The translations under genes were made by a program, and so were the position numbers. A DNA stretch of 64,000 bases. Source: Pseudomonadota bacterium. Lineage in GTDB: Bacteria; Pseudomonadota; Gammaproteobacteria; Acidiferrobacterales; UBA6901. Position 1 is the stretch's first letter, and every line of letters starts with the position of its first letter. The notes under the pieces were generated by a model. The model made no database searches and had not been told where the DNA came from. It saw only the letters and a list, made by a program, of their open reading frames with translations. The stretch lies in contig JAJYEX010000007.1 in the NCBI GenBank assembly GCA_021785515.1, positions 1 to 64,000 of the forward strand, read 5' to 3'. This document shows positions 35,358-55,652 of this stretch, piece after piece.

Positions 35358-35491
35358 GCCGGCCGTTCACGCGGCTGCGAATGGCGCGGCAGTGCTCCCC
35401 GGACCGTGCCTGCCGGCCGACCTGCCAATCTGCGTGCCTCCGATCTCATGCAGGGCCTCCGGCTGTCGCACACCGGAAGCCGACACGCGGG

Positions 35492-36733: not shown

Positions 36734-36778
36734 CTGATGGCCCGGTTTCTGTTTCGGTCTTGGGATCTGGGTGGGTGG

Positions 36779-37507: not shown

Positions 37508-38015
37508 TGCTGGCCACCACAGGATCAGATTGAAGCTGTGTGATTTCCGTCTCCTTCACCATCTCGGCGATGCGCGAATTTGTTGGCGCCAGGGCCATGA
37601 CGGAATTTGCGCCCGTGCTCTCGGGGTGCGACGAATGACAGCTGAAGCAGTCTATCCGGACCGCTGCATATTCGTGGCAGCTGGCACAAAACCCGTGTTT
37701 GCCAAGGACACTTTGCGTCTTCGGGTCGGCGTGGCAGTCGACACAGTTTGTCAGCAGAAAGCGTTTGGTACGGATCCCGTCATGGACGGTAAGGAAGCGC
37801 TGGTGAAGCAGAAACTGCATGTGGTAGCGGCGCATTACGGACAGCGGTGCCACACATTTGGTGCCCTTGCCAAGATAGACCCCGGCAAGCGGGGAGGGGA
37901 CCGGTTTCGACGGCCCCCCGGAAATCGCGTAGGCCGCCGCAAAGAATACGGCGACCGCCACGACCGCCGTGACCCACGCTCCCAGCTTCAGTTTCATGTG
38001 GTGACTCATCGCCAT
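37497..38015 (-). CDS. dsrJ: DsrJ, triheme cytochrome c
   Basis: This 172-residue protein has an uncleaved N-terminal signal-anchor (LGAWVTAVVAVAVFFAAAYAIS). Exactly three CxxCH haem sites follow: CVDCH, CASCH and CFSCH. The DsrJ family has one haem with unusual His/Cys ligation; other Cys in this protein include KCVAP. It is the periplasmic subunit of DsrMKJOP and possibly the site where a sulfur substrate is handled. Confidence 0.94.
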   Translation of the reverse strand: MAMSHHMKLKLGAWVTAVVAVAVFFAAAYAISGGPSKPVPSPLAGVYLGKGTKCVAPLSVMRRYHMQFLLHQRFLTVHDGIRTKRFLLTNCVDCHADPKTQSVLGKHGFCASCHEYAAVRIDCFSCHSSHPESTGANSVMALAPTNSRIAEMVKETEITQLQSDPVVASNEH

Positions 38016-38044
38016 AATGATTCAGCCCCGGCCGCGAATACCGA

Positions 38045-40012: not shown

Positions 40013-40061
40013 CGAGAATCTCCTCGTTATGCGTCGCTGAAAAGGGATGGATGTATAGACA

Positions 40062-41552
40062 TCATTCTTTAGTGCCCAGCTGTATCGCCTTGCTGACGAG
40101 GCCGTGCACGCTGCCGATCATGTCCATCGGAAACTGGTAATAGGGCAGAACCTTCGCAAACTGGGTCTTGCATATGGCGCAGATAGCAGCCAGGTAATTG
40201 ACGCCGTGGTCTTCGACCACATGCTTCAGGGCTTGCATGCGTGGTTGTGCGCCCTTGACCCGCAGTTCCATCAGGTCGTCAGTCAGCAGTCCGCCGCCGC
40301 CACCGCAGCAGAAGGTGCTCTCGTGAATGCTTCCCGGTTCCATGTCGTGGAACTTGTTGACGGACGCCCTGATAACCGCGCGCGGAATGATGAACTGGCC
40401 GCCCGGCATCGTGCCCATGCGCGAGGCGCGAGCCACGTTGCACGAATCGTGGTAGGTGACCACCTTGTCATCGTTGGCCGACTTGTCCAGGTTGAGTGCC
40501 CCGCGCTGGATGAGGTCGTAGGTGAACTCGCAGATGTGCTGCGGCACCGGATAACGCGGATCAAGAAAATCGAACGGCCCAATGAGCGTGTTCCAGAAGC
40601 TGTAGGCCACACGCCAGGCGTGTCCGCATTCCCCGACCACGATGCGCTTGACCCCGAGGTCGAGCGCGGCCTCGCGAATACGGAAGGCCACCTTGTGAAG
40701 ATTTTCATGGCTGCCTATGAACATCGAGAAGTTGGCCGCCTCGGACGCGTGCGAACTCAGGGTCCATCTTATGCCGGCCTGATGAAACACCTTGGCATAG
40801 CCGATGAGGCCGTCGATATGCGGTTCGGCAAAGAAGTCGGCCGACGGCGTGATGACCAGGACTTCGGCACCTTTTTCGTCGAGCGGAAACTTCACGTCGA
40901 CGCCGGTTTCGTCCTTCACATCCTCCTCAAGGCCGTCGAGGGTGTTGCGCAGGGCGGGTTCCGGCAGGCCCAGGTTGTTGCCGATGCTAAAGACCTTGCC
41001 GATGATCTCGTTGCAGTACTTCTGGCCGACGCTGATGCTGTCCATGATCTCGCGGGCCGCCATGGATATCTCGGCGGTGTCGATGCCGTAAGGACAGAAG
41101 ACCGAACAGCGGCGGCACTGGGAGCATTGGTGAAAGTAGCTGTACCACTCGTCCAGCACTTCCTTGGTCATATCCCGCGCGCCGACGAGCTTCGGAAACA
41201 GCCGGCCGGAGAGGGTGTAGTAGCGCCGGTAGACGCTGCGCAGCAGATCCTGGCGCGCAACCGGCATGTTCTTCGGATCGCTCGTGCCGAGGTAGTAGTG
41301 GCACTTGTCCGTGCAGGCCCCGCACTTGACGCAGGAGTCGAGGAAGACGCGCAGGGCGCGGGATTCGTCGACCAGTTCCCCGAGCTTCTTGACGGCCTGC
41401 TTCTCCCAGTTTTCCGGGAGTTCACCGGGGAATCCGAGTGCTTTCTGAAGGTCCGGTTTGGCAACGAACGGCTTGCTGTGGGCCATCGTTCCCGCATGCA
41501 CCAGCGGAATGACAGGGTATTCGCGCAGCGCAGGTGTTTCGAAGTTTGCCAT
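40062..41552 (-). CDS. dsrK: DsrK, HdrD-like CCG-domain iron-sulfur subunit
   Basis: This 496-residue protein has two [4Fe-4S] binding motifs (CVKCGACTDKCHYY and CSQCRRCSVFCPYG). CCG-type domains follow with VVGECGHAWR and, near residue 420, FCCGGGGGLLTDD, ending in a second Cys-rich stretch (ICAICKTQFAKV). It is the cytoplasmic catalytic subunit of DsrMKJOP and interacts with DsrC to form or oxidise the DsrC trisulfide. It is separated from dsrM by 11 bp. Confidence 0.95.
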   Translation of the reverse strand: MANFETPALREYPVIPLVHAGTMAHSKPFVAKPDLQKALGFPGELPENWEKQAVKKLGELVDESRALRVFLDSCVKCGACTDKCHYYLGTSDPKNMPVARQDLLRSVYRRYYTLSGRLFPKLVGARDMTKEVLDEWYSYFHQCSQCRRCSVFCPYGIDTAEISMAAREIMDSISVGQKYCNEIIGKVFSIGNNLGLPEPALRNTLDGLEEDVKDETGVDVKFPLDEKGAEVLVITPSADFFAEPHIDGLIGYAKVFHQAGIRWTLSSHASEAANFSMFIGSHENLHKVAFRIREAALDLGVKRIVVGECGHAWRVAYSFWNTLIGPFDFLDPRYPVPQHICEFTYDLIQRGALNLDKSANDDKVVTYHDSCNVARASRMGTMPGGQFIIPRAVIRASVNKFHDMEPGSIHESTFCCGGGGGLLTDDLMELRVKGAQPRMQALKHVVEDHGVNYLAAICAICKTQFAKVLPYYQFPMDMIGSVHGLVSKAIQLGTKE

Positions 41553-41563
41553 GTCTCGAGCGC

Positions 41564-42313
41564 CTATCGGCCACCGGGGTTGTGAATCGAAGCGGACCAG
41601 CCGGCAACGTGCCGCTGCTCCCGCGGATTGTCGACCTGGTTACGGGTCGGGCTGAAAAACACCCCTGGGGCGTGCAGCAGCTTGCTCATGGGGAATACGA
41701 TCATGAGCGTTGCCACCAGCGCCAGATGGACAAGCAGGACCGGGTCGGCAGGAAGCGGCTGCGGATTGAACGAAAGCAGACCGAGAAAGAATTCCTTCAG
41801 CCCGATGATGTTGGTGTGGAACACGAACTTCATCATCAGCCCGCTTAGTGCGATCGCGACAAGCAGCGCCAGCATCAGGTGATCCGACAGGTTGCTGATG
41901 TAGCGCACGCGGTCAACCACGAAGCGCCGTCCCCACAGGCCGAGGAGTCCGACGACCATGATGAAACCGGCATAGATGCCGAACGGCTGCTCAAGCACCA
42001 CCCAGCTCCAGACCGGCTGGGTGAAATAGCGCAGATGCTGCAGCAGCACGAGAAGCAGGGCGAAATGGAAAAGAATTCCGAAAAGCCAGATCCACTTGTT
42101 CGACTTGAACAGACTCTCAAACACCGTCACTTCACGCAGCATCCGTCCGACGACGCCCAGGCGGGTGACCGGTGCCGGAGTCGTGGGAATCTTCAGCGGT
42201 GCCGGAGTGCATGCAAAGACGTACACCTTGTACGCCAGGCCGCCCACCAGCACCACCGTGGCTACGTAGAAGAGGACTGCATAGATTATCGTCACAGTCG
42301 ACATGGTCCCCAC
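41564..42313 (-). CDS. dsrM: DsrM, haem b membrane subunit (NarI-like)
   Basis: The protein has 249 residues with about five transmembrane helices (for example IIYAVLFYVATVVLVGGLAYKVYVF and LFGILFHFALLLVLLQHLRYF). It has His residues in helices typical of diheme NarI-type cytochromes b (FHFALLLVLLQHLRY; LSDHLMLALLVAIALSG; LLVHLALVATLMIVFPMSKLLHAPG). It moves electrons between DsrK and quinone. The tail SPTRNQVDNPREQRHVAGWSA is characteristic. Confidence 0.94.
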   Translation of the reverse strand: MGTMSTVTIIYAVLFYVATVVLVGGLAYKVYVFACTPAPLKIPTTPAPVTRLGVVGRMLREVTVFESLFKSNKWIWLFGILFHFALLLVLLQHLRYFTQPVWSWVVLEQPFGIYAGFIMVVGLLGLWGRRFVVDRVRYISNLSDHLMLALLVAIALSGLMMKFVFHTNIIGLKEFFLGLLSFNPQPLPADPVLLVHLALVATLMIVFPMSKLLHAPGVFFSPTRNQVDNPREQRHVAGWSASIHNPGGR

Positions 42314-42364: not shown

Positions 42365-42697
42365 TCAGACGCACCCGGTCGGCTTCGGAAGGCCGGCGTA
42401 TTTGCAGGCCTGCTTGGCGGGGCCGTAGGGAAACAGTTCGTAGAGGTACTTGCTGTTGCCTTTGTCGGGGCCGAGCTTCTTGCCGATGGCCTTGGTAAGC
42501 ACGCGCACGGCCGGAGCAATCTGGTATTCCTCGTAGTACTCGCGCAGGAAGTTGATGACTTCCCAGTGGTTCTCCGTCAGATTGCAGTTATCGACCTTCG
42601 CCATCTCTTTGGCCAGGTCCTCGTTCCAGTCCGTCCGGTTGGTCAGATATCCTTCCTCGTCGGTCTCATAGCTCTGTCCGTTTACTACGATAGGCAT
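42365..42697 (-). CDS. dsrC: DsrC, sulfur carrier with both conserved cysteines
   Basis: The protein has 110 residues. MPIVVNGQSYETDEEGYLTNRTDWNEDLAKEMAK and TENHWEVINFLREYYEEYQIAPAVRVLTKAIGKKLG lead to the C-terminal arm KQACKYAGLPKPTGCV with CysB at C98 and penultimate CysA at C109. This is a fully functional DsrC that carries sulfur to DsrAB as persulfide/trisulfide. An additional DsrC-like paralogue without cysteines is encoded at 49864, across the divergent region. Confidence 0.97.
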   Translation of the reverse strand: MPIVVNGQSYETDEEGYLTNRTDWNEDLAKEMAKVDNCNLTENHWEVINFLREYYEEYQIAPAVRVLTKAIGKKLGPDKGNSKYLYELFPYGPAKQACKYAGLPKPTGCV

Positions 42698-42735
42698 GGT
42701 CGTTTCCTCTTCAGATTAACAACAATAGGTACTGC

Positions 42736-43035
42736 TCACAGCCAGGATTGCACGTTTCGGTGTTCCGCCACGAGATCAACGAAACCGCCGTAGTCTACAA
42801 GCTTGATGCCATCGATCGCCCTGTCCTGCATGCCGCGGGCCTCGATGTCAGGGTAGAGCGCGTAGATTGTCACGTCCTTCATCGCCTTCCTGACCTTGTC
42901 GGTGACGGTTGTGCCCTTCAGGGCACCGTAAACACCGTCCTCGATGAGCAGAATGGCACTTCCTTTCTTCGCGTACTGCAGGCAGCGCTCCAGGGTGTTT
43001 CGTTCCATGGGCGACTTGTTCACGGTATGTAGCAT
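42736..43035 (-). CDS. dsrH: DsrH, sulfur-relay subunit (TusB-like)
   Basis: This 99-residue protein (MLHTVNKSPMERNTLERCLQYAKKGSAILLIEDGVYGALKGTTV) has the DsrH/TusB fold and the conserved Cys18. It assembles with DsrE and DsrF as an E2F2H2 hexamer that passes sulfur to DsrC. It is encoded 12 bp after dsrF. Confidence 0.94.
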   Translation of the reverse strand: MLHTVNKSPMERNTLERCLQYAKKGSAILLIEDGVYGALKGTTVTDKVRKAMKDVTIYALYPDIEARGMQDRAIDGIKLVDYGGFVDLVAEHRNVQSWL

Positions 43036-43047
43036 GCTCGTTCTCCG

Positions 43048-43455
43048 TCAGAAGCTCAGCACGATGTCCTGCCCGTCCATGAGGTCGGACATTTCCGCCG
43101 CAGACAGCAGGGTCACGGGGACGATCAGATCCTCGGGCGTGAGGCCGCGGGCTGCCAGTGATTCCTTTTCGACGTACAGCTTTTCGATGTCGTAACCTTC
43201 CAGCGCACGGTAGGTGGGGGAGAAGTTCTTGACGTCGATCGTCTTGGTGTGTTGCCCTTTCACCAGCTGGTACACGCCATCATCCAGGAACACCAGGCTC
43301 ACGTCCTGGTCGAATGCCGCCGCGATCAGCACTACCTCGAGGGACTCGAGTGCATAGATGGTCCCGTAGGGCGCCTTGCGGTTTACGTAGAGGAATTTCT
43401 TTACGACGCCTGAGACATCTTCTTGCATCTCAACGCCGCCTGTTGTTTCGCTCAT
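43048..43455 (-). CDS. dsrF: DsrF, sulfur-relay subunit (TusC-like)
   Basis: This 135-residue protein has the core FLYVNRKAPYGTIYALESLEVVLIAAAFDQDVSLVFLDDGVYQLVKGQ, the DsrF/TusC signature. It has no cysteine in the active-site region, in line with a structural role in DsrEFH. A short N-terminal extension (MSETTGGVEMQEDVSGVV) precedes the domain; a later in-frame Met is an alternative start. Confidence 0.93.
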   Translation of the reverse strand: MSETTGGVEMQEDVSGVVKKFLYVNRKAPYGTIYALESLEVVLIAAAFDQDVSLVFLDDGVYQLVKGQHTKTIDVKNFSPTYRALEGYDIEKLYVEKESLAARGLTPEDLIVPVTLLSAAEMSDLMDGQDIVLSF

Positions 43456-43484
43456 CGATATCTCTCCAATCCTGGCAGGTCATG

Positions 43485-43850
43485 TCAGTCGCCGAATACG
43501 ACCAGGCGATCGGCCTGGATCCCGGATTCGATCAGTTGCCCCAGGCCGGAGATCCGGAATCCTTCTGCAAGATTCTCATCGCGGATGCCGCGCCGCAGCG
43601 CCGCGGCAACGCACACGACCAGATCGACCTGGTTCTCCGCTGCCAGCTTGCTCCAGCGGGCAACGATGTTGCGATCGTCCTGCGGTGGCTCGGTGAGCCG
43701 CGTGGCGTTGTTCACGCCGTCGTGGTAGAAGAAAACGCGGTGGATCTGGTGACCCTTCTCAAGTGCTGCCTTGGCGAACAGATAGGCCGTATCGGACGCT
43801 TCGTGCGTATATGGCCCTTCGTTCACCATGATGCCGAACTTCATGTACAT
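43485..43850 (-). CDS. dsrE: DsrE, sulfurtransferase subunit of DsrEFH (TusD-like)
   Basis: This 121-residue protein (KFGIMVNEGPYTHEASDTAYLFAKAALEKGHQIHRVFFYHDGV) has the persulfide-carrying cysteine in VDLVVCVAAALRRGI. It accepts sulfur and passes it to DsrC. DsrEFH marks sulfur-oxidising dsr loci. It is separated from dsrB by 276 bp, which contain a perfect FNR-type box, so the E-onward genes may have a second promoter. Confidence 0.94.
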   Translation of the reverse strand: MYMKFGIMVNEGPYTHEASDTAYLFAKAALEKGHQIHRVFFYHDGVNNATRLTEPPQDDRNIVARWSKLAAENQVDLVVCVAAALRRGIRDENLAEGFRISGLGQLIESGIQADRLVVFGD

Positions 43851-44126: not shown

Positions 44127-45206
44127 TCAGAAGCGGATATGCGTGGAGGCGTTCAAGCTCGCACGCGATCCACGCCAGTTGTCGATGTGGAACTTGGTGA
44201 ACGGCAGGCCGGTCAGCTCGAAGAAGCGGGGCCAGCCGATGCGGGTCACCCAGTCACCGACGCGTTCCCAGTCCTTCGCATCCTCCTTGTAGACGCGCAG
44301 GATGTTCTTGACGATGGCCGCAGCTTCCGGCCAGCGCGGCGGATTGTTCGGGATGCCGGCCGCCACAAGCTTGTGGAACATCGGCTTGGAGCGGGCATTG
44401 GAGTTCTTGCCGCCCACCCAGATCGCGATCTTGGAGTGCTCGGGATCGTTGATCTGCATCGGCGGGCAGGGCGGATAGCAGGCCCCGCAGCAGACGCATT
44501 TCTTCTCGTCGACCTCGAGTGAAGGCTTGCCGTTGACCATTGCCGGGCGAATCGCCGCCACCGGGCAGCGGGCCACCACGGACGGCCGTTCGCAGACATT
44601 GGCCACGAGGTCGTGGTTGATCTTCGGCGGCTTGGTGTGCTGGATGTTGATGGCGATATCGCCCTGCCCGCCGCAGTTGATCTGGCAGCAGGAGGTCGTT
44701 ATGTGCACACGGTTCGGCATCTCCTCGTGGATGAACTCCTCATAGAGCTCATCCATCAGCGACTTCACCACGCCCGAGGCGTCGGTGCCGGGGATGTCGC
44801 AGTGCAGCCAGCCCTGGGTGTGGGAGATCATGGTGACCGAGTTGCCTGTGCCGCCGACTGGATAGCCGGCATCGGTGAGCGCTTCGATCAGCGGTTCGAC
44901 CCTTTCGGCCTTGTCGACCATGATTTCCAGGTTGCTGCGGATGGTGAAGCGCACGTAACCGTCGGCATACCTGTCGACGATGTCGCACAACAGGTTGATC
45001 TCGTACGGACCAAGCTGGCGCTGGGTGCCGGCCCGTACCGTCCAGATCTCGTCGCCGCTGTGTGCCACATGATGCAGCACACCGGGACGCGGACGGTCGT
45101 GATATTTCCAGTTACCGTAGTTCTTGATCATCAGCGGGTGCATGTACTGGAACCCATCCGGGCATCCGCTCTCGATCGGTTGACGCATTGCGGCTTGTTC
45201 AGCCAT
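44127..45206 (-). CDS. dsrB: DsrB, reverse dissimilatory sulfite reductase beta subunit
   Basis: This 359-residue protein has siroheme/[4Fe-4S] Cys motifs TTSCCQINCGG (C173, C174, C178) and VCERPSVVARCP (C205, C214). The inserted ferredoxin domain has CVCCGACYPPCPPM (C237-C247). With DsrA it forms the cytoplasmic siro(heme)amide enzyme that oxidises DsrC-bound sulfur to sulfite. Sulfur oxidation rather than sulfite reduction is inferred from dsrEFH and dsrL in the same operon. Confidence 0.97.
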   Translation of the reverse strand: MAEQAAMRQPIESGCPDGFQYMHPLMIKNYGNWKYHDRPRPGVLHHVAHSGDEIWTVRAGTQRQLGPYEINLLCDIVDRYADGYVRFTIRSNLEIMVDKAERVEPLIEALTDAGYPVGGTGNSVTMISHTQGWLHCDIPGTDASGVVKSLMDELYEEFIHEEMPNRVHITTSCCQINCGGQGDIAINIQHTKPPKINHDLVANVCERPSVVARCPVAAIRPAMVNGKPSLEVDEKKCVCCGACYPPCPPMQINDPEHSKIAIWVGGKNSNARSKPMFHKLVAAGIPNNPPRWPEAAAIVKNILRVYKEDAKDWERVGDWVTRIGWPRFFELTGLPFTKFHIDNWRGSRASLNASTHIRF

Positions 45207-45287: not shown

Positions 45288-46583
45288 TCAGCCAGCTGCC
45301 TGCTGCTTGCGGTCGAACCACTTCTCGGCCTCCTTGTCCCACTCATCTGTGCGGATGTAGGAGATGGTTCGCGGATGGTTGATCATGTTGGGATCGACCT
45401 CTCGGCCAATACCTTCAAGGAAATTGACGAGGCCGATGCGCTCGATCATCTCGCCGCAACGTTCGTGCTCCAGGCCGTTCTCAGCCCAGAAGTCGATCGT
45501 GTTGACAGCGATTTCCTTCAGCTGCTCGTAGTCTTCATCAGTCTCGAGCGCCATGAACGGTACGATGACCGTACCCATGGTGTCGCCGATTTTCAGGGTG
45601 CGCTTGCCACCGATCAGGACGGTGACGCCTTTTTCCTTGCCTGGCGACAGCGCCTTGGTCATGACGTTGATGCAGTGCATGCAGCGCACGCAGTTGCGGT
45701 TGTCGACGTCGAGCGTGTCATCATCATTGAGCGACAGCGCCTGGGTCGGGCAACGGCTGACGACGTTGTCGATGACGTACTTGCGGCCGCGGGAAGCCAC
45801 GAATGCCCGGACTTCCTTCTGGTCGACCTGCATGTCGTCACGCCAGGTCCCGATTACGGCCATATCGGCACGCTGGATCGAGTTCATGCAGTCGTTGGGG
45901 CAGCCGGACACCTTGAACTTGAACTTGTAGGGCAGGGCCGGACGGTGCATGTCGTCGATGAAGTTGTTGACCAGCAGCCGGTGGATCTTCTGCTCGTTGC
46001 AGTTCGACTGTTCACAACGGGCGGCACCCACGCAAGACATTGCCGTGCGTACGCACGGGCCCGCGCCCCCGAGATCGAAGCCGTATGCATTGACCTCGTC
46101 GAAGAAGTGCTGCGTGTTCTCGGACGTGGTGCCGATGAACATGATATTGCCGGTTTGCCCGTGAAAGGCGATCAGCCCAGAGCCCCACTTGTTCCAGGAA
46201 TCGGACAGCTGGCGCAGGATCTTGGTGGTGTAGTGGTTTCCGGCGGGAGGCTGCACCCGCAGCGTGTGGAACTCCTTGGATTCCGGAAACATCTTGGCGA
46301 CTTCGGAGAAGCGCGGAATGATACCGCCGCCGTAGCCGAACACGCTGACCGTTCCGCCTTTCCAGTAGCCGGTGCGCGTCTTATAAGAATGCTCCAGCTG
46401 TCCCAGGAGATCGACCATCATGTTGTTCTCGTGAGCGAGCCGCTTCAGGCCAGTAACGAAACTGGGCCACGGACCGCTCTCGAGCTGGTCGAGCATGGGG
46501 GTGTTGTGGAACGGCTTGGTCGACTTTTTGTCCTTGGGGACAAAGGTCGCGTGTTTCGCCGGATTCTTGGGTGTCTTTTGCAT
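45288..46583 (-). CDS. dsrA: DsrA, reverse dissimilatory sulfite reductase alpha subunit
   Basis: This 431-residue protein has Cys-x5-Cys (C184, C190 in AMSCVGAARCEQSNC) and Cys-x3-Cys (C228, C232 in SGCPNDCMNS), which ligate the siroheme-coupled [4Fe-4S] cluster. The ferredoxin insertion has NRNCVRCMHCINVM. It is the first gene of the dsr operon, and its promoter lies in the 500-bp region shared with the divergent dioxygenase operon. Confidence 0.97.
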   Translation of the reverse strand: MQKTPKNPAKHATFVPKDKKSTKPFHNTPMLDQLESGPWPSFVTGLKRLAHENNMMVDLLGQLEHSYKTRTGYWKGGTVSVFGYGGGIIPRFSEVAKMFPESKEFHTLRVQPPAGNHYTTKILRQLSDSWNKWGSGLIAFHGQTGNIMFIGTTSENTQHFFDEVNAYGFDLGGAGPCVRTAMSCVGAARCEQSNCNEQKIHRLLVNNFIDDMHRPALPYKFKFKVSGCPNDCMNSIQRADMAVIGTWRDDMQVDQKEVRAFVASRGRKYVIDNVVSRCPTQALSLNDDDTLDVDNRNCVRCMHCINVMTKALSPGKEKGVTVLIGGKRTLKIGDTMGTVIVPFMALETDEDYEQLKEIAVNTIDFWAENGLEHERCGEMIERIGLVNFLEGIGREVDPNMINHPRTISYIRTDEWDKEAEKWFDRKQQAAG

Positions 46584-47088
46584 CGTTCACTGCCTCCTGT
46601 GCGTACGGAAGGACTTTCATCAAGCTGGTCTGCGCTTCTTACCGGTGCAAACTCAGCATCGTTGACTCGTTTCGCGACACTACGGCCACGCGGATCCATT
46701 CCACATGCCGGTGCCAGTAAGCTCGCCCGGTGTTTGACTGCCGGTCAGAGCAGATCCGAGTCAGCGCGGGGCAATCCGTGTCTGCCAAGGCGCCAGCTCA
46801 GTTCGGGATGCGAGTCTAGTGGCCCGGGTTGCCGCAAAAACATCCTTCATTAGGGGGATAAATAGGGCTACTTAACCTACCTATCGGGATAGCCTGTTGG
46901 GTTGACGCAGAGGCCTCATACGATAGACACTTGTTAATATCTATTATAAACAATGATCTAGAGTGATTCTGAACGGATCGGGACCTACCCATAAGAGATA
47001 TAGGTTCGGGTGGTGACCAGCCCCGCATGGAGGTCGAATATCTCGTCGGCGGGGACCGATATTTGTAGAATGTCGCCGGTTCCGGAAA
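46584..47088. promoter_or_regulatory. Divergent control region dsrA / dioxygenase operon
   Basis: This roughly 500-bp gene-free region drives two sulfur-related operons in opposite directions. The right half (46850-47010) is AT-rich. It contains a repeated 10-mer, ACCTACCYAT, at 46875-46884 and 46983-46992. It also contains the inverted repeats CTATC-gg-GATAG (46881-46892) and ACCTA...TAGGT (46983-47005). Both 10-mers include a TACYYMT heptamer of the kind bound by NarL. Confidence 0.5.
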
Positions 47089-48093
47089 GTGGTGGCGGTC
47101 CGGCACACGGGTCAGGCAGGGTACTCAGGGGTGCCTTTGGCTAAATTGCTCCAGCAGTCAAATCCAGGTTCCGGTGGGGTCGGGTTGAAAGCGAGTCTGT
47201 TTTCTTTAGGTGACGACGCGGCTTACCAGCGCTGGCGGGCCTGGAAGCTCGACGGTTATCCCGCACGGGCCGAAGACCTGATCGTCGAAGTCGGGGATCC
47301 CCGGGAGTTGACGCAGGCAGAACAAGCCGAGATGAGGCGCGTATGCGCCAAGACCAATATGGTCATCTATGCTGCCCGGGATGCCAGGGAAGAGGATAAG
47401 GCCATCCCGCGGGCGATGGGTGCGCGGTTTGGCCTGCACCGGCTGGACGCGAATCTGCTGGCCGACGAAGACAGCATCTCCTCGCTGGAAGTGGTGCCAA
47501 GCAAGTCCGGTCGAGGCTACATTCCCTATTCCAATCGCCGGTTGCTGTGGCACACCGACGGCTATTACAATCCACCCGCGCAGGCGATTGAGAGCATGGT
47601 CCTGCATTGCGTGCGCCCGGCAGCGACCGGGGGCGAGAACGCCCTGCTTGACCATGAGCTGGTCTATATCCTGATGCGTGACGCCGCGCCTCAGTACGTG
47701 CAGGCGCTCATGGCGCACGACGCCATGACGATCCCCGCGAATGTCGAGGGGGGCAGCGAGCAGCGGCCGGCCCAGAGCGGACCCGTATTTCTGGTGAGTC
47801 GCAACGGCGCCAGTCTGCTCATGCGCTATACCGCGCGTACCCGCAGCATCATCTGGAAGCCCGACGCCGTCACCAGGGAAGCGGTTCTGTTTCTGGAGCA
47901 GCTGCTGGAAACCGGATCGCCCTATATATTCCGCCACCGGCTGGATGCCGGCCAGGGTCTGCTGTGCAACAACGTGCTGCATAACCGCAGCGGCTTTACA
48001 GACGGTGAGGACCGCAGTACAAGTAGATTGCTCTACCGTGCGCGGTCGTTCGACCGGGTAGCCGGTACCGAATTTGACACGATCTATTGCTAG
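47089..48093 (+). CDS. TauD/TfdA-family Fe(II)/2-oxoglutarate dioxygenase-like protein
   Basis: The protein has up to 334 residues. The iron-binding HxD is in LLWHTDGYYNPP and the distal His in LLCNNVLHNRSGFTDG; the 2OG-binding Arg may be in TSRLLYRAR. The typical TauD middle (VRPAATGGENALLDHELVY) is present. Substrate unknown. The GTG at 47089 gives a poor first 32 residues; a TTG at 47185 (KASLFSLGDDAAYQRWR) after GGTGGGG is a plausible true start. It is first of an operon diverging from dsrA, so a role with organic sulfur or a protein/RNA substrate of the sulfur pathway is inferred. Confidence 0.8.
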   Translation: MVAVRHTGQAGYSGVPLAKLLQQSNPGSGGVGLKASLFSLGDDAAYQRWRAWKLDGYPARAEDLIVEVGDPRELTQAEQAEMRRVCAKTNMVIYAARDAREEDKAIPRAMGARFGLHRLDANLLADEDSISSLEVVPSKSGRGYIPYSNRRLLWHTDGYYNPPAQAIESMVLHCVRPAATGGENALLDHELVYILMRDAAPQYVQALMAHDAMTIPANVEGGSEQRPAQSGPVFLVSRNGASLLMRYTARTRSIIWKPDAVTREAVLFLEQLLETGSPYIFRHRLDAGQGLLCNNVLHNRSGFTDGEDRSTSRLLYRARSFDRVAGTEFDTIYC

Positions 48094-48102
48094 GGCGGTG
48101 CC

Positions 48103-48303
48103 ATGCTATATCTGAGTGAAATTCTGATCCAGAATCACGATATCGACAGCTTCGAAGACCTGCTGGGCGTGGTGACGCAGCGTGCCCAGGGCGGCGAGAT
48201 TTTCTTCCGCATTGACGTGAAGCCGCAGTTTGCCGACACCCCGGCGAACTGGGAGGACCGGCTGGAAGGCGCATTCGTCGGCGTCAATTCGATCACGCGC
48301 TGA
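48103..48303 (+). CDS. Small conserved-looking protein of unknown function
   Basis: This 66-residue acidic protein (MLYLSEILIQNHDIDSFEDLLGVVTQRAQGGEIFFRIDVKPQFADTPANWEDRLEGAFVGV) starts 10 bp after the dioxygenase stop. It has no Cys, signal peptide or membrane segment. I do not recognise a family. Codon use and tight spacing support a real gene. Confidence 0.65.
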   Translation: MLYLSEILIQNHDIDSFEDLLGVVTQRAQGGEIFFRIDVKPQFADTPANWEDRLEGAFVGVNSITR

Positions 48304-48367
48304 GTGCGGTCCGCACCGGATGAACCGCTTTGTGCAGGCTGATGTCTCCCCGGAGATTAGTTAAAGC

Positions 48368-49075
48368 ATGAAATACCTCAAGGAACAGACCGGCATCATG
48401 GATGCCGATGGCAGCGAGGACACGCTCGGTTCGCAGCTGCTCGTTGAGCAGCGCCTGAGCGATGTGCTCGACCGCCTGCGTGTGCTCGCGTCCGATCGTG
48501 ATCCGCTGGGCGTTGCCGACCTGGAGCTCGATGCTGGCCGGCTGCTGGTGGAGCTCGAACGGGATGAAGAGGCCTGGGAACGGGGCCGGAGAGCATTTGA
48601 TCTCTATGTCTCACAGGAATCCTGGGAAGGGGCGGTCCAGTCCTGTGACGTGATGTTTCAGGCCGACCGTGAGGAATCCCTGGCTGCGCTGGGGCAGGGA
48701 TTGTGGCTCACAATCACCTTTCCGATGGATCCGGAACTGTCAGTCGCCATGCTGCAGCATGTCGTGGACGAAACGCCGCCCGATTCCGATGGTGCCGCCG
48801 TGGCAGCCGTTGTTGCCCGCTATCTGGTCGACATGCGGGCCGAAGGCCGGCAGCGCGAGGATCTGGAATTCTATACGGACCAGATGCTGGCCACCGTCGC
48901 GCGGCGACACAGCGGTATCGAGGATCAGAAAGGTTTTGATGCGTGGTTCCGTCGCCTGGAGCTGGACGATCCGGCGCGGTTCCTGCCGCGGATGCGCAAT
49001 GTGGTCGATGTGCTGGTCCAGAACGAGTGGTGGATCGACCGTGAGGACCTGCAGAGCCGGCTTCCGGTTCACTGA
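48368..49075 (+). CDS. Unknown helical protein of the dsr-linked operon
   Basis: This 235-residue acidic, mostly helical protein has TPR-like pairs (LELDAGRLLVELERDEEAWERGRRAFDLYVSQESWEGAVQSCDVMFQADREESLAALGQGLWL). The C-terminal part includes VVARYLVDMRAEGRQREDLEFYTDQMLATVARRHSGIEDQKGFDAWFRRL. There is a single Cys (QSCDVMFQ), no signal peptide and no catalytic motif. It is probably cytoplasmic and an adaptor. It lies between the 66-residue gene and the Cas6-like gene. Confidence 0.7.
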   Translation: MKYLKEQTGIMDADGSEDTLGSQLLVEQRLSDVLDRLRVLASDRDPLGVADLELDAGRLLVELERDEEAWERGRRAFDLYVSQESWEGAVQSCDVMFQADREESLAALGQGLWLTITFPMDPELSVAMLQHVVDETPPDSDGAAVAAVVARYLVDMRAEGRQREDLEFYTDQMLATVARRHSGIEDQKGFDAWFRRLELDDPARFLPRMRNVVDVLVQNEWWIDREDLQSRLPVH

Positions 49076-49091
49076 GTGGTACAGATAAGTC

Positions 49092-49775
49092 ATGTACTGG
49101 ACCGAGCATAATCCGGCTGAAACCTACCGTATTTCCGACGAGGTTGTGGACGTCTCCTACGCGATTTCGTGTCGCTGTCTGGCGGTGGACCACGCCCATG
49201 CCCTGCGCCAGGCGCTGCAACACGCGTTGCCATGGCTGACGGACGAGGAGGGTGCCGGCATCCATCCGCTGCACGGCGCGGAATCCGGCAACGGCTGGGT
49301 GCGTCCGGAGAACCCGGATGATCTTCTCTATCTGTCGCGGCGAACGCGGCTGGTTCTGCGTTTGCCGCAGCATCGGATTGCCGATGCGGCGGCCCTGAGC
49401 AGCCGGAATCTGGATATCGCCGGCCATCAGCTCGGTGTGGGCGATCATTCTCTGCGCCAGCTGAGCCCGCTCACCACGATCTTCGCGCGCTACGTGGTGG
49501 TCGAGGCGGGGGCCGACGAGCAGGTGTTTCTGCAGACAGTCATGCGGCAGCTGGATGGAATGGGCATCCACCCGAAAAAGGCGCTGTGCGGGATGGAAAG
49601 GACGCTGTTCACGCCTGATGGCCGGGTGCGCGCACGCAGCCTGATGCTTGCGGACCTGAGCGTGGAGGAGTCCGTGCGTCTGCAGCAACGGGGCCTCGGG
49701 CCCGAACGTCAGCTCGGTTGCGGCCTGTTCGTTCCACACAAGAATGTCGATGAGGTGCGCGACCCCGAACGCTAA
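49092..49775 (+). CDS. Cas6/Cmx6-like RAMP-fold protein without CRISPR context
   Basis: This 227-residue protein resembles type I-MYXAN Cas6 (Cmx6). The N-terminal RAMP half has VSYAISCRCLAVDHAHALRQALQHALPWL, the place where Cas6 carries its catalytic His (H34 or H36 here). The middle has GIHPLHG and LYLSRRTRLVLRLP, with LDIAGHQLGVGDHSLRQLSPLTTIFARYVVV. A C-terminal block SVEESVRLQQRGLGPERQLGCGLFVPHKN ends in the glycine-rich GxG...GCGxF loop of Cas6. No other cas gene or repeat array is in the window. Its neighbours are a DsrC-like gene and a rhodanese gene. RNA binding or cleavage is inferred, not shown. Confidence 0.7.
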   Translation: MYWTEHNPAETYRISDEVVDVSYAISCRCLAVDHAHALRQALQHALPWLTDEEGAGIHPLHGAESGNGWVRPENPDDLLYLSRRTRLVLRLPQHRIADAAALSSRNLDIAGHQLGVGDHSLRQLSPLTTIFARYVVVEAGADEQVFLQTVMRQLDGMGIHPKKALCGMERTLFTPDGRVRARSLMLADLSVEESVRLQQRGLGPERQLGCGLFVPHKNVDEVRDPER

Positions 49776-49863
49776 ATCGGGACCGATCTGCGTCCCGCGC
49801 CTGATGGCACGTAACGCAAATTTATGGAGTTCATGTGAAACAAAATAAAAGAGGGATAAACGT

Positions 49864-50205
49864 ATGACTTATGAAGTAAATGGTAAGTCGCTGGAGACCA
49901 CGGCGACCGGCTATCTCGTGAATCAGGACGACTGGGACAAGGACGTGGCGGAAGTGATTGCCAAGTCCGAGGGGCTCGATCTGACGCAGGACCATTGGGA
50001 CGTGATCGAGTACCTGCGCGATGAGTATTTCAATCACGGCGGAGAGTTGCCCAACAACCGTCACATGATGAAGGGAATGCAGGAAGTATGGTCCGACCGC
50101 AAGGTCGACTCAAAAATGCTGTTTGATTTGTTTCCGGGCAACCCCTCCAAGCAGGCGGGCAAGATAGCCGGCCTGCCGGAAAGCATGCGCAAGGGTGGAT
50201 ATTGA
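49864..50205 (+). CDS. DsrC/TusE-like protein lacking all cysteines
   Basis: The protein has 113 residues. It is clearly homologous to DsrC: YEVNGKSLETTATGYLVNQDDWDKDVAEVIAKSEGLDLTQDHWDVIEYLRDEY and LFDLFPGNPSKQAGKIAGLPESMRKGGY. Compared with the real DsrC at 42365, CysB has become Gly (KQAGK) and the penultimate CysA has become Gly (KGGY). The protein has no Cys at all, so it cannot carry persulfide. DsrC-family proteins without these cysteines have been proposed to be regulatory. It retains the helix-turn-helix-like DsrC core. It is cotranscribed with the Cas6-like gene 88 bp upstream. Confidence 0.9.
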   Translation: MTYEVNGKSLETTATGYLVNQDDWDKDVAEVIAKSEGLDLTQDHWDVIEYLRDEYFNHGGELPNNRHMMKGMQEVWSDRKVDSKMLFDLFPGNPSKQAGKIAGLPESMRKGGY

Positions 50206-50266
50206 ATCGCCGGTTGCCTGCAACGTGTCAGGGGGGCGGTATCGTGGCCCTGGGCAGGTGGTAAGC

Positions 50267-51157
50267 ATGTTCAGGACGCTTGTGGATACTTCGATCCTGC
50301 GCAGTCATCTCGATGATCCGGCGTGGGTGATCGTCGATTGCCGGTTCACGCTTACCGACACCGGGGCTGGTGCCAGGGCTTATGCGGCGGGTCACATCCC
50401 GGGAGCGCGCTACGCCCACCTCGATCTCGACCTGTCCTCGGAGATTGGACCGGGAACCGGACGTCATCCACTGCCGGATCCGGTGCTGCTGGCGGAGAAA
50501 CTCGGATCCTGGGGTATCGGTGCGGGCAGCCAGGTTGTGGTATACGACGACAGCCTGGGTGCCATGGCATCGCGCCTGTGGTGGCTGTTGCGCTGGTTGG
50601 GACACGACGCCGTGGCGTTGCTCGACGGCGGGATCCAGAAATGGCGGCGTGAGGGCCTTCCGGTTTCGGCCGCCGTTACCGTGCCTGTTCCCGTGCGGTT
50701 CGAGCCGCTTCGCGACGACCGTCTGTGGGTAAGCAGCGAGTTCGTGCGCGACGTGGTGGCCCGCCGAGAATGCCTGCTGATCGACGCACGCGCGGAGGAG
50801 CGTTTCCGCGGCGATATCGAACCGCTGGACCCGGTTGCGGGCCACGTTCCGGGCGCGGTGAACCATCCGTTCGAGGACAATCTCGATCTGGGCGGGCAGT
50901 TTCTGGAGCCAGCAGCGCTGCATTCCCTGTACCTGGGCATTCTCAAGGATGTGCCGCCGGAGCGCGTCATCCAGATGTGCGGCTCGGGAGTGACGGCCTG
51001 TCATAACCTGCTTGCCATGGAGCATGCCGGTCTGCGCGCTGGGCGGCTCTATGCCGGTTCCTGGAGCGAATGGATCGCCGATCCACGCCGGCCGGTGGCG
51101 CGGGGAGATGCGCAAAACGAAGAGATCCTGCCACTGGGAGCTGGCGCTGTCCGCTGA
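50267..51157 (+). CDS. Tandem-rhodanese sulfurtransferase (SseA-like)
   Basis: The protein has 296 residues. Two rhodanese domains are present: inactive N-terminal (DDPAWVIVDCRF, AAGHIPGARYAHLDLDLSS) and active C-terminal (LLIDARAEERFRGDIEPLDPVAGHVPGAVN). The active loop is CGSGVTACHN. CGSGVT-type loops are typical of 3-mercaptopyruvate sulfurtransferases, though thiosulfate may also be used. The start at 50267 is preceded by AGGTGG; an in-frame ATG at 50195 overlaps the DsrC-like gene and adds implausible sequence. As last gene of the operon it may supply persulfide sulfur. Confidence 0.88.
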   Translation: MFRTLVDTSILRSHLDDPAWVIVDCRFTLTDTGAGARAYAAGHIPGARYAHLDLDLSSEIGPGTGRHPLPDPVLLAEKLGSWGIGAGSQVVVYDDSLGAMASRLWWLLRWLGHDAVALLDGGIQKWRREGLPVSAAVTVPVPVRFEPLRDDRLWVSSEFVRDVVARRECLLIDARAEERFRGDIEPLDPVAGHVPGAVNHPFEDNLDLGGQFLEPAALHSLYLGILKDVPPERVIQMCGSGVTACHNLLAMEHAGLRAGRLYAGSWSEWIADPRRPVARGDAQNEEILPLGAGAVR

Positions 51158-51611: not shown

Positions 51612-52010
51612 CTAGCGCCCGCGCTCCAGTCGCAGCGCGGCGGAATTGATGCAGTAGCGCAGACCGGTGGGCGCCGGACCGTCTTCGAAAACGTGACCGA
51701 GGTGCGCCTGGCAGCGGCTGCAATGGACTTCCACGCGCGTCATGGACAGGCTGCGGTCCTCCGTGGTGGCGACGTTTTGCGGCGCGTGCGGTTCCCAGAA
51801 GCTGGGCCAGCCCGTCCCGGAATCGAATTTGGCATGGGAGTCGAACAGTTCCGTGCCGCAGCACACGCAGCGGTAGATGCCTTCGTCCTTGCACGCGTGG
51901 TACTGTCCGGTGAAGGGCCGCTCCGTTCCCTTTTCGCGGGTCACGCGGTACTCCTCAGACGTGAGCAGTCGGCGCCATTCGGCGTCAGTCTTGTCGATCC
52001 TGCGATCCAT
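51612..52010 (-). CDS. msrB: Peptide-methionine (R)-S-oxide reductase MsrB
   Basis: This 132-residue protein has the catalytic Cys in [11 protein letters not shown] and two zinc CxxC motifs (CVCCG and [12 protein letters not shown]). The central [13 protein letters not shown] is diagnostic. It reduces methionine-R-sulfoxide in oxidised proteins; it is cytoplasmic, with no signal. Transcribed with the PKHD-type oxygenase gene 27 bp upstream. Confidence 0.96.
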
Positions 52011-52037
52011 GGCTATTCTCCGTTTTCCGGCGCGTGG

Positions 52038-52712
52038 TCAGAACTCGCTCCACATGCGCACCAGGTTCACGTAGGTGGTATTGACGCGTGCCGTCTCGGG
52101 CGCGTCCGGGGATTTTTCAAGCAAGGCCTCGCGTGCCAGATTGAGTTCATACAGTAATTCGCGCCGTGCCGGGTCACGCACCAGGCTCTGGGCCCAGGTC
52201 ACCGCCACCAGGCGTTCGCCGCGCGTTACCGGCGCCACGTGGTGGAGACTGGAGGCCGGGTACATGATCGCGTCACCGGCCGGAAGCTTCACGCTGTTGC
52301 TGCCGAATGCGGTGCGGATCTCGAGTTCGCCGCCGTCGTACGCCTGCGGGCCGCTCAGAAAGATCGTGATGGCGATGTCCGAGCGGTAGAGGGCGCCGTC
52401 GGTGCCCATCACCGGATCATCGACATGGTCTCCATAGGTGCGACCCGGGAGGTAGCGCGCATAGTACGGGGCGGCGACTTTCAGCGGCAGCGCGCCGTTG
52501 CGGTATACCGGGTGCTGCACGAGTCTGCCCATTACCAGGTTGTCGAGCTGCGCGAGTTCCTGCGATTTGCGGTCAGCCTCCTCGTTGTTCTTCACGCGGC
52601 GCGCGGCGGATCCTGCGGACAGCCGGCCGTCAACGAAACGTGCCGCAGCGAGAATTGCGGTCGCGGCAGCCACTTCATCCGGAGCCAGTACTGCGGACAG
52701 GTGCAGCATCAT
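52038..52712 (-). CDS. PKHD-type Fe(II)/2-oxoglutarate hydroxylase (PiuC-like)
   Basis: This 224-residue protein (MMLHLSAVLAPDEVAAATAILAAARFVDGR) carries the Fe site HVDDPVM (HxD) and LHHVAPVTRGERLVAVTWAQS (distal His and 2OG-binding Arg). The segment IFLSGPQAYDGGELEI is typical of PiuC/YbiX hydroxylases. In other bacteria such genes are linked to iron uptake; here it lies in a run of oxygenase and redox genes. The long in-frame extension to 53357 is antisense-like junk over the TrpD-like gene. Confidence 0.9.
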   Translation of the reverse strand: MMLHLSAVLAPDEVAAATAILAAARFVDGRLSAGSAARRVKNNEEADRKSQELAQLDNLVMGRLVQHPVYRNGALPLKVAAPYYARYLPGRTYGDHVDDPVMGTDGALYRSDIAITIFLSGPQAYDGGELEIRTAFGSNSVKLPAGDAIMYPASSLHHVAPVTRGERLVAVTWAQSLVRDPARRELLYELNLAREALLEKSPDAPETARVNTTYVNLVRMWSEF

Positions 52713-52722
52713 GGCGGGGTTC

Positions 52723-53841
52723 TCAGGACGGCAGACGCGCGCGGGCCGCGCCGGAGTCGAGCACGCGCCGCACCGCACCTGCCGCTGCCGCCAGGGAATC
52801 GTGACGTCCCAGTTGCCACAGGCAGATGGCCCCGGTGTAGACCAGGCTGTCGCGTACCGCTCCGGCCGCACCCGCCAGTGCTGCAAGGCCGGCCTGCGCT
52901 GCGGCCGCGGCAACGGCACCGGTGTCGGGCCGTACGCTTTCATCGCCCTCCGGCGGCGCCAGCTCAGCAGGCAGCGGTGCGGCGCGCAGCGGCTGGTCGA
53001 TGTCGAGCGTGAGCGGGTCCAGATCGAGGGACTGTTCCTCGGCGCGGCCGTGGTAGAAGTACAGCTTGCCGGCCTGCCGCAGGGAGGGAATGACCCCGCC
53101 CTCGATGCCGCGCACGAGCAGCGCCGAGTCGAATCCGGCGTGGCGGGCAAGCATGGCGTAGACCCGGGCATAGGGCTTGTGGACATAGCCGGTAAGCAAA
53201 CAGGTCCGCCGCCGGCCGCGCACAGGCCCGAGGAGCGTCTCCGCGGTTGTGAGCACCGGCCGCTTGACGATAAGGCGGCGCAGACCGCCGAGCCCGTACA
53301 GCTCGGGACAGAAGCGGCTCTGGTCGAGGTACGACCAGCCTGTGGCGGGATCCGCAAGACGGGCCGCGGCCTGCTGCGGGGTGAGGTCGACCGGTACGCC
53401 GGCGGCGCGCAGCACCTGGCGGTGTGTCACCCCGTATTTCGGTCCCATGCTCTCGACCCCGTGCGTGACCGCCGGTACGCCGCAGGCGGCCAGCAGTGCC
53501 GGCAGGAATGGCGAGGCCGGCAGGCAGCGCGCGTAACCATCATAGGGATCTGCAACATCGATCAACTCATCGACATCGGCGGTGACAGTGACCGTTTTTT
53601 CGAGCAGCGCATCGAGGATCCCCAGGTTTTCCTCATCGGTCTCGCGCTTCATTCGCAGGGCAATCAGGAATACGGCGGCCTGTACCGGATCCGCGCGGTT
53701 CTCGAGAACGAGGCGCATCGCGTTGTGCGCCTCTTCCTGTGAGAGATCCTTGCTCAGTTCCGGGCCGGTCGCGATTCGCTGGATGACGGAACTGAGGGCG
53801 GCCTCGCGGCCGGGCGTGACGGCGTCGGGGTACTGACTCAT
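52723..53841 (-). CDS. Anthranilate phosphoribosyltransferase-like protein (TrpD2/YbiB type)
   Basis: This 372-residue protein has the glycosyltransferase-family-3 helical domain (ELSKDLSQEEAHNAMRLVLENRADPVQAAVFLIALRMKRETDEENLGILDALL). The large-domain part has DPYDGYARCLPASPFLPALLAACGVPAVTHGVESMGPKYGVTHRQVLRAAG. The KHGN-type substrate loop of true TrpD reads THGVESMGPKYG here, so anthranilate transfer is unlikely; YbiB-like members bind nucleic acids. The last 80 residues are alanine-rich. No trp genes are nearby. Confidence 0.8.
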   Translation of the reverse strand: MSQYPDAVTPGREAALSSVIQRIATGPELSKDLSQEEAHNAMRLVLENRADPVQAAVFLIALRMKRETDEENLGILDALLEKTVTVTADVDELIDVADPYDGYARCLPASPFLPALLAACGVPAVTHGVESMGPKYGVTHRQVLRAAGVPVDLTPQQAAARLADPATGWSYLDQSRFCPELYGLGGLRRLIVKRPVLTTAETLLGPVRGRRRTCLLTGYVHKPYARVYAMLARHAGFDSALLVRGIEGGVIPSLRQAGKLYFYHGRAEEQSLDLDPLTLDIDQPLRAAPLPAELAPPEGDESVRPDTGAVAAAAAQAGLAALAGAAGAVRDSLVYTGAICLWQLGRHDSLAAAAGAVRRVLDSGAARARLPS

Positions 53842-53942
53842 CAGAAAAACTCCTCAACATGATCGCGGTCGGGCAAGGCGGGATTATACCGCCGCTGGCC
53901 CTCCCGCCAGAACAGGCAGGCGGCGCGTGCGCCGGCCCCGCT

Positions 53943-54257
53943 TTAGGTGATGGCCACCAGAATGTCGTCACCTTCCACGCGGACGGGGTAGGTGCGCAGG
54001 TTCTCCTGTGCCGGATCCTCCATCGCCTGGCCGGTGCGCACGTTGAAACGGCTCCCGTGCAGGGGGCATTTCACAAATTCGCCCCGCAATGATCCGGTGG
54101 ACAGAGATGCATCTTCGTGAGTACAGGTGTCGTCCACCGCGTAATAGTTTCCATCGACATTGGCGAGGAGGATGCGTCGGCTGTCGAGCAGTACGCGCTG
54201 CATGGCGCCAGGCCGGATGGCATGTGTAGATGCCACTTTCACATATGTGGTTTTCAT
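53943..54257 (-). CDS. Rieske-type [2Fe-2S] ferredoxin
   Basis: This 104-residue protein has Rieske motifs CTHEDASLSTGSL (C-x-H) and CPLHGSRFNVRTG (C-x2-H), ending VRVEGDDILVAIT. It is a soluble small ferredoxin of the oxygenase type, not an anchored bc1 subunit. The start MKTTYVKVAS is chosen; an in-frame upstream Met at 54308 adds a junk-like leader. It likely donates electrons to an oxygenase. Confidence 0.92.
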   Translation of the reverse strand: MKTTYVKVASTHAIRPGAMQRVLLDSRRILLANVDGNYYAVDDTCTHEDASLSTGSLRGEFVKCPLHGSRFNVRTGQAMEDPAQENLRTYPVRVEGDDILVAIT

Positions 54258-54335
54258 AAGGATCCGGGGTTTGTGGGCCGGCCGATTATACATCGGGACG
54301 CAGCGCAACCAATCCGCCCGCGGCGGCAGCCGGCA

Positions 54336-55058
54336 TCAGCGCACGAACATCGACAGCCCGCTGGCAAGGATGATCCAGGCCACCACCCGCCGAAACAGCG
54401 TTTCTTTGACGCGGAAGTGCAGATGGTTGCTGAACCAGAGCGCCACGGCCAGAAACGGCCCGGAATCGAGCATCAGGCGGGCGATACCCGGAGTAATGGT
54501 GTGGGCGAACAGGTAGCCGGTGGCACGCAACAGGTTGAGGGACAGAAAGAACGCCAGGGCGTAGTTGCGCACAACAGTCTTGTCGTTGAAGGTGGCGAGC
54601 AGTCGGGTCATGGCGATGGGACCGCTGATGCCGAACAGTGCCTGGGACATTCCGGAAAAGGTATCGAGCACGCGGGCGCCGGCCGGGTGCAGGCGCCACT
54701 TGCGCGGACCGGTCAGCAGATGCACGCCCGCAAGGGTGACGAGGGTCGCAAGAAGGATGCGGAAGAGCCGGCCCGGAACATGATAGAAAAGAAAGAACCC
54801 GGCTATTCCGCCGACGGCGGCGAAGGCCAGCATGCCACCAAGAAAACGCAGGCGCACGGTGCGGGGTGAACGCATCAGGCCGATGGTGCCGACCAGGATC
54901 TGGGGCAGGACCGAGTAGACCACGAGCGTCTTGGCATCGTAGAACAGGGTCAGAGCAGCGAGCATCATGATCGTACCGGCGAGCCCGAACACGATTTCAA
55001 ACGAATACGTGAACGCGCAGACTGCGGTGAGAATCAGGGCAGGCGGAGCCGGGATCAC
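54336..55058 (-). CDS. TauE/SafE (TSUP) family membrane transporter
   Basis: This 240-residue protein has about seven hydrophobic helices. It has the TSUP half-repeats: FSYEIV-type start (TYSFEIVFGLAGTIMMLAALTLFYDAKTLVVYSVLPQILVGTIGL) and the second half (VLDTFSGMSQALFGISGPIAMTRLL). Family members move sulfite, sulfoacetate or similar organosulfur anions, so export or import of a sulfur anion is plausible beside the dsr locus. Confidence 0.85.
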   Translation of the reverse strand: MIPAPPALILTAVCAFTYSFEIVFGLAGTIMMLAALTLFYDAKTLVVYSVLPQILVGTIGLMRSPRTVRLRFLGGMLAFAAVGGIAGFFLFYHVPGRLFRILLATLVTLAGVHLLTGPRKWRLHPAGARVLDTFSGMSQALFGISGPIAMTRLLATFNDKTVVRNYALAFFLSLNLLRATGYLFAHTITPGIARLMLDSGPFLAVALWFSNHLHFRVKETLFRRVVAWIILASGLSMFVR

Positions 55059-55079
55059 GGTGCGCGGGCAGCCGCCACC

Positions 55080-55652
55080 TCAAGCAAAGCAGACCCACGT
55101 GGTCGCGATGTACTTCGTGCCCTGCTGCAGGGTGACTCCGCGGTGGCCGTGGGTCCAGAACGGGGGGAACAGCAGCAACTTGCCTTCCTGCGGTGTGATT
55201 CGCACGTCCTGGGCATGAAATTCGGTTTCGCCGCCCGGTCCGGGCACATCATTGAGGTACCAGATTGCCACCAGCTGCCGCTGGCTGAATTCCCCGGGGC
55301 CGCTGTCCACGTGCCAGTGGTAATGCTCTCCGGGGCCGGTACGTTGCAGGTTGTATCCCATGTCCTTGAAGGCATTGGCTGCGAAAAATGGATGCTGCAG
55401 AGCCAGCATCCGGACATGCTGCATCAGCGAACGCACCAGTATGCCGTCGATGTCTTTCCAGTCTGGCCGGCCGCTGACGCGCAGATCAGTCGATTTCTTG
55501 ATCGACTGTTCGATGTCGGCGGCCTGGCCGATGCGTCCCGGGTATTGCTGGTCCGGCTTGGCCTCGAACCGCCGGATCATCTCGCGGCACACGTCGCCCG
55601 CAAGAGCCTGGTGAACTTCATAGATGAAGCTGTGGGGTTTGACTTCGATCAT
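55080..55652 (-). CDS. Prolyl-4-hydroxylase-type 2OG-Fe(II) oxygenase
   Basis: This 190-residue protein has the Fe/2OG core HYHWHVDSGPG (HxD), LVAIWYLNDVPGPGGETEF, and PEGKLLLFPPFWTHGHRGV-type ending (distal His) with KYIATTWV (2OG partner). It starts MIEVKPHSFIYEVHQALAGDVCREMIRRFEAKPDQQYPG. Substrate unknown; single-domain P4H-like proteins may hydroxylate peptides. It is 22 bp upstream of the TSUP gene and probably co-transcribed. Confidence 0.88.
   Translation of the reverse strand: MIEVKPHSFIYEVHQALAGDVCREMIRRFEAKPDQQYPGRIGQAADIEQSIKKSTDLRVSGRPDWKDIDGILVRSLMQHVRMLALQHPFFAANAFKDMGYNLQRTGPGEHYHWHVDSGPGEFSQRQLVAIWYLNDVPGPGGETEFHAQDVRITPQEGKLLLFPPFWTHGHRGVTLQQGTKYIATTWVCFA

Follow-up and report, generated by a model that had tools for sequence, protein, structure and literature searches.

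Genes at the dsr locus

The window analyzed here is a 64,000-nucleotide stretch of a gammaproteobacterial contig, and carries a dsr operon on its minus strand. The genes dsrA (45288-46583; TIGR02064, 595 bits) and dsrB (44127-45206; TIGR02066, 518 bits) are followed by four small ORFs (42365-43850) whose place and size correspond to dsrE, dsrF, dsrH and the canonical dsrC, and then by dsrM, dsrK, a dsrL-like gene, dsrJ, dsrO, dsrP and a dsrN-like gene (33975-42313), named from profiles and position. Among these, dsrEFH were assigned by order and length only, dsrM, dsrJ and dsrP scored below the profile cut-offs, and dsrL and dsrN were named from generic models and position. The product of the canonical dsrC (42365-42697) ends in AGLPKPTGCV, unlike the RKGGY of the cysteine-less paralogue described below. 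The window contains a complete oxidative dsr operon, dsrABEFHCMKLJOPN, with dsrEFH, dsrL and dsrN named partly by order. A second dsrAB with 71% DsrA identity was found in the window's own genome at G000:C11:635675-637967 (locus L169), and several relatives have one likewise; the surrounding 16 kb showed no other dsr gene and no cas6 block.

Divergent from the operon, the plus strand carries a block in the order tauD-like, s66, orf235, cas6, cysteine-less dsrC paralogue and rhodanese; the divergent dsr operon and the first three genes of the block go unmentioned in the earlier note. The first gene (47089-48093) encodes a TauD/TfdA-family 2-oxoglutarate oxygenase with an intact H155-x-D157...H298 site and R313; the oxygenase is probably active, because these residues are kept in 62/62 loci. 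The second, s66 (48103-48303), encodes a conserved 66-aa protein (MLYLSEILIQ...DTPxNWEDRLExAF), with the tauD-like gene on one side and orf235/cas6 on the other, that had no relative in Pfam or the PDB and is new in this analysis. The conserved ~200-nt "spacer" 3' of the tauD-like gene was considered as a non-coding RNA substrate and ruled out, as it encodes s66. The conserved ORF orf235 (48368-49075) encodes a 235-aa all-helical, TPR-like protein, for which a Foldseek structure search gave no match below E=0.001. Its identification as CRISPR Cse2 was rejected, since only 3/36 members matched and the best E value (0.012) was at chance level.

The earlier note had placed a DsrC-like gene and a rhodanese gene beside cas6 in the same orientation, and both are present. 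The DsrC-family paralogue (49864-50205; 113 aa) matches PF04358 and TIGR03342, and its tail reads KGGY in 62/62 loci and RKGGY in 61/62. In contrast to the DsrC sulfur carrier, it has no C-terminal cysteines in 61/62 loci, and is thus not a sulfur carrier. Cysteine-less DsrC-family members of this kind have gone by the name RspA, with a suspected regulatory role. The rhodanese/3-mercaptopyruvate sulfurtransferase-like gene (50195-51157) is linked in the window's order, and is mostly missing from the block outside that order. In Thiodictyon syntrophicum, a DsrC-like gene (THSYN_22565) lies near the dsr cluster THSYN_22490-22545 (PMC5944118) and would fit the RspA-like gene of the block. That paper also refers to work showing DNA binding by A. 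vinosum DsrC upstream of the dsr cluster (PMC5944118).

Further features were recorded around the block. In the dsrA/tauD intergenic region (46584-47088 of the window), two words are shared across families, GGGATATA in 16/57 and AGTCTAG in 17/57 (shuffled maximum 6 and 12, respectively), and these are possible regulator or promoter sites. A second conserved group on the minus strand (51612-55652) comprises genes for MsrB, a phosphoribosyltransferase/TrpD2-like protein, a Rieske protein, a TauE exporter, a 2-oxoglutarate oxygenase (PF13640) and a further conserved ORF that was labeled 2OG52 without a profile scan; parts of this group persist even in 1 Mb genomes (L131, L132). An Rfam group-II-D1D4-2 intron match (42.2 bits) lies at 19198-19320 on the plus strand.

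Fold, clade and conserved residues of the Cas6 homologue

The gene at 49092-49775 (plus strand, ATG start) encodes a 227-aa protein that the earlier note had taken, by eye, for a Cas6/Cmx6-type RAMP homologue, and profile and structure searches bear this out. It matched PF09559 (Cas6) in Pfam with E=1.8e-65 (221 bits, cut-off 26.7) and TIGR02807 (cas6_cmx6) in NCBIfam with 142.3 bits (cut-off 98.85), its PDB match was 8fcj_B (6e-15), and PADLOC also labels it Cas6. An AlphaFold model built from 62 relatives (mean pLDDT 90) was compared with solved structures using Foldseek. The closest was the Cas6 of a type I-B CAST Cascade (8fcj_B; E=4e-16, Z=25.1, rmsd 1.9 over 196 residues, 27% identity), and the leading matches beyond it were a long series that was all Cas6/RAMP. 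The predicted structure has the tandem ferredoxin-like RAMP fold, where the comparison proposed in the earlier note could have returned another. The gene is under purifying selection, with dN/dS within genera of 0.06-0.19.

Both motifs named in the earlier note were located, DHAHAL at residues 33-38 and the C-terminal Gly-rich loop at residues 196-213 (RLQQRGLGPERQLGCGLF). In the alignments, all 74 dsr-linked and all 5 CRISPR Cas6 proteins have His34, the Gly-rich loop is retained in every dsr-linked member, and G209 and G211 are kept in 62/62 proteins. A second histidine, H58, is found in 70/74 dsr-linked proteins and aligns with the histidine of "GIHP" in 8fcj_B. By alignment, H34 is the putative catalytic residue; 8fcj_B, the nearest solved structure, has Asn at this position. 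The retained core suggests a capacity for RNA recognition, perhaps with cleavage.

In the phylogenetic tree, the 74 dsr-linked proteins, which include those of Thiomargarita and Ca. Parabeggiatoa, were split from CRISPR Cas6 with support of 100/99, the CRISPR side being five cyanobacterial sequences only. A single deep clade fits the earlier description of the protein as "domesticated", but the direction from CRISPR to dsr is an inference from a tree with only those five on the CRISPR side. Several traits are specific to the dsr-linked clade and absent from CRISPR Cas6, namely the invariant W3, W69 and R84, the NGWxRP insert and the PHK tail. The type I-MYXAN Cas6/Cmx6 proteins, encoded on plasmids of Gloeothece, Synechocystis and Nostoc, share the family, the fold, an end-to-end alignment, His34 and the Gly-rich loop with the dsr-linked proteins, whereas the latter differ in an N-terminal WxE stretch, the insert, the tail and a lower pI, and identity is only 25-30%. 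The I-MYXAN cas6 genes adjoin cas3-cas8-cas7-cas5, mostly with cas1, in full operons on cyanobacterial plasmids, and no dsr-linked cas6 was seen in such a setting. The 8fcj Cas6 is a subunit of an RNA-guided complex and, besides the Asn in place of His34, has no NGWxRP insert.

Distribution with dsr and CRISPR genes

To profile the occurrence of cas6, we focused on 321 genomes of the window's class. Both cas6 and dsrA were present in 97, cas6 only in 7, dsrA only in 6 and neither in 211 (Fisher test, p=2e-65); the test counts genomes as independent although they are related, which, given the effect size and the many families, is a caveat and not an explanation. The two genes lie within 8 kb of each other in 71/97 genomes (median 2.8 kb), and a closer set of 60 relatives showed the same pattern. 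The partner genes are tied to cas6 as well: cas6 and orf235 gave counts of 82/22/1/216 (in the order both, cas6 only, orf235 only, neither; p=2e-54), so cas6 is also present in 82/83 genomes with orf235. Likewise, cas6 accompanies s66 in 76/77 genomes, the remaining genome having a contig that breaks off next to s66. A survey of the phylum found only two further cas6 genomes, both of the same class and both dsr-linked, the sampling depth of the other classes not being visible in it.

Most of the inspected exceptions among the 13 genomes with only one of the two genes stop at a contig edge. In the dsrA-only genomes G126, G135, G165, G178 and G265, the dsrA match begins within ~600 bases of a contig start or (G178) the contig ends beside s66, and in the cas6-only loci L134, L135 and L136 the edge is reached beside the tauD-like gene. 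The absence of cas6 from G009, a dsrA-only genome of family f4, is real, because the dsr operons of this family are complete enough to show it. In the stretches read, the f4 loci (L159-L168) have dsrAB...MK(L) operons and no cas6, s66 or tauD-like block; f4 represents a real natural loss of cas6.

The order dsrB-dsrA on the minus strand, then tauD-s66-(orf235)-cas6-rspA on the plus strand, recurs in many families of the class, and the synteny of the block is kept in most of about 75 loci. The cas6 gene persists in genomes of 1.0-1.4 Mb, and four loci from genomes of 1.0-1.1 Mb (L130-L133) keep it with the tauD-like, s66 and rspA genes. Two further genomes have the block in a changed order (L181, L182), and G164 and G280 contain cas6, dsrA, s66 and orf235 although cas6 lies far from dsrA and from the paired s66 and orf235.

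The CRISPR side gave a different picture. No direct-repeat array was found in the 64-kb window, as the earlier note had stated, and beyond the window, where CRISPR was judged through Cas1 and Cas7 only, neither Cas1 nor Cas7/DevR was found in the window's own genome. An intact type I-MYXAN locus elsewhere in the genome, which the note had named as evidence against its proposal, was thus not seen. Across the 321 genomes, cas6 and cas1 showed no association (45/59/74/143 in the same order; p=0.14), so that cas6 co-occurs with dsr in genomes with and without Cas1. The nearest cas1 to a cas6 on one contig, among the matches listed, is 22 kb away. Neither the repeat-free window sequence, nor the genome without Cas1 and DevR, nor the comparison over 321 genomes places this Cas6 in, or in the service of, a CRISPR-Cas locus. 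Elsewhere, a PF09559-type Cas6 on a Gloeobacter morelensis plasmid (L155; NZ_CP063846.1, 7974-8765) has no other annotated cas genes nearby. It lies close to a DNA methyltransferase gene and to genes of the PAPS-reductase family, and may be a further case of this family serving outside CRISPR.

Possible RNA targets and roles of the dsr-linked Cas6

To seek an RNA target, leaders and spacers of the locus were folded. The dsrA-dsrB spacer had a mean z of -1.8 against shuffles, the others -0.2 to -0.7, and a hairpin that is strong by energy occurs there in ~2/3 of the cas6-containing loci. Covariation, with changes on both sides, was seen at 7/10 pairs in 14 loci hand-picked for having the hairpin. 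The cas6-minus operons of f4, which is one lineage, mostly have a much shorter dsrA-dsrB spacer without the hairpin. A covariance model of the hairpin gave no match in the window or its own genome and only few in loci outside the training set, and the spacers of L130-L133 are only 2-38 nt long, with no room for it. As a general Cas6 substrate the hairpin was rejected, being missing from the window, its own genome and the smallest genomes; it stays a lead only, and may be an unrelated mRNA-stability element. RNAalifold found nothing on multi-family spacer alignments because the spacers do not align, and no Rfam family was detected in 46560-50300.

The dsr-linked Cas6 is almost certainly a CRISPR-independent component of the dsr system. 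Since this homologue is a standard, CRISPR-independent part of a sulfur-oxidation cluster, it must have a non-CRISPR job, one that probably involves some cellular RNA, and the recurrence of the same partners suggests that the module is regulatory and linked to sulfur. RNA is, by a small measure, the favored ligand, and a Cas6 acting outside CRISPR as a dedicated RNA-binding protein and permanent member of the oxidative (reverse) Dsr module is a reading on which we are evenly divided. That the protein cleaves RNA is plausible but tentative, and that its target is a transcript of the dsr locus is somewhat unlikely. In the mechanism we propose, the Gly-rich loop would recognize a stem-loop in a cellular transcript, and the H34 center would hold or cut it; the protein would be an RNA-binding protein and probably a single-turnover endoribonuclease. 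The TauD-like protein, s66, the cysteine-less DsrC/RspA and often orf235 could couple this action to sulfur status, and dsr expression would be tuned after transcription.

The fold might instead have been reused without RNA, serving the Dsr module as a protein scaffold or in its assembly; the invariant Trp3, Trp69 and the PHK tail would then form the interface to the TauD-like protein, s66, RspA and orf235. Most dsr-linked proteins are acidic (median pI 6.2, against 9.3-9.6 in six CRISPR/plasmid Cas6 proteins), their invariant W3, W69 and R84 and the NGWxRP insert have no counterpart in CRISPR Cas6, and the partners are enzymes and helical-repeat proteins, not known RNA proteins. Because the acidic charge speaks against RNA binding, we keep the scaffold as a lesser but serious possibility; net charge is, however, confounded by proteome make-up in this comparison, and a pure scaffold would not need the H34 and the Gly-rich loop that every member keeps.

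An RNA-modification complex, in which an RNA-binding Cas6 fold would work with a TusE/DsrC-like protein, a sulfurtransferase and the 2-oxoglutarate oxygenase on tRNA or rRNA, would account for the TusE/DsrC-family gene, the rhodanese gene and the active-site-intact TauD-like oxygenase adjoining cas6. This is improbable, as the paralogue without C-terminal cysteines (61/62 loci) cannot carry sulfur as TusE does, and the rhodanese gene is no constant member of the block. Still less credible, and very nearly dismissed, is an ordinary crRNA-processing Cas6 that serves arrays elsewhere in the genome. The NCBIfam and PADLOC name and the 45/104 cas6 genomes that also have Cas1 would agree with it, but not the lack of association with Cas1, the own genome without Cas1 and Cas7/DevR, the repeat-free window, the distance to the nearest cas1 noted above and the constant dsr synteny.

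That these proteins are called Cas6 in databases is already known, and sulfur-oxidation genes in these genomes thus carry a CRISPR label. The open-access literature we searched contained no report linking Cas6 to dsr. At its widest, our proposal is that a whole Cas6 clade left or never joined CRISPR and became the endoribonuclease of sulfur oxidation in bacteria. Together with a 2-oxoglutarate oxygenase, a cysteine-less DsrC-like protein and the new 66-aa protein, it would form a dsr-specific system that responds to sulfur by controlling a cellular RNA, and would matter enough to withstand reduction of the genome to ~1 Mb; in this full form the proposal is speculative and rather doubtful. The s66 protein, the oxygenase and the cysteine-less DsrC offer tangible starting points for a portion of the dsr locus that has had no explanation, and the role is testable in a culturable sulfur oxidizer. 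Cas6 is usually regarded as a CRISPR enzyme, and its presence, in ~100/321 sampled genomes of one class, within an energy pathway that is central to the sulfur cycle calls for a non-CRISPR function.
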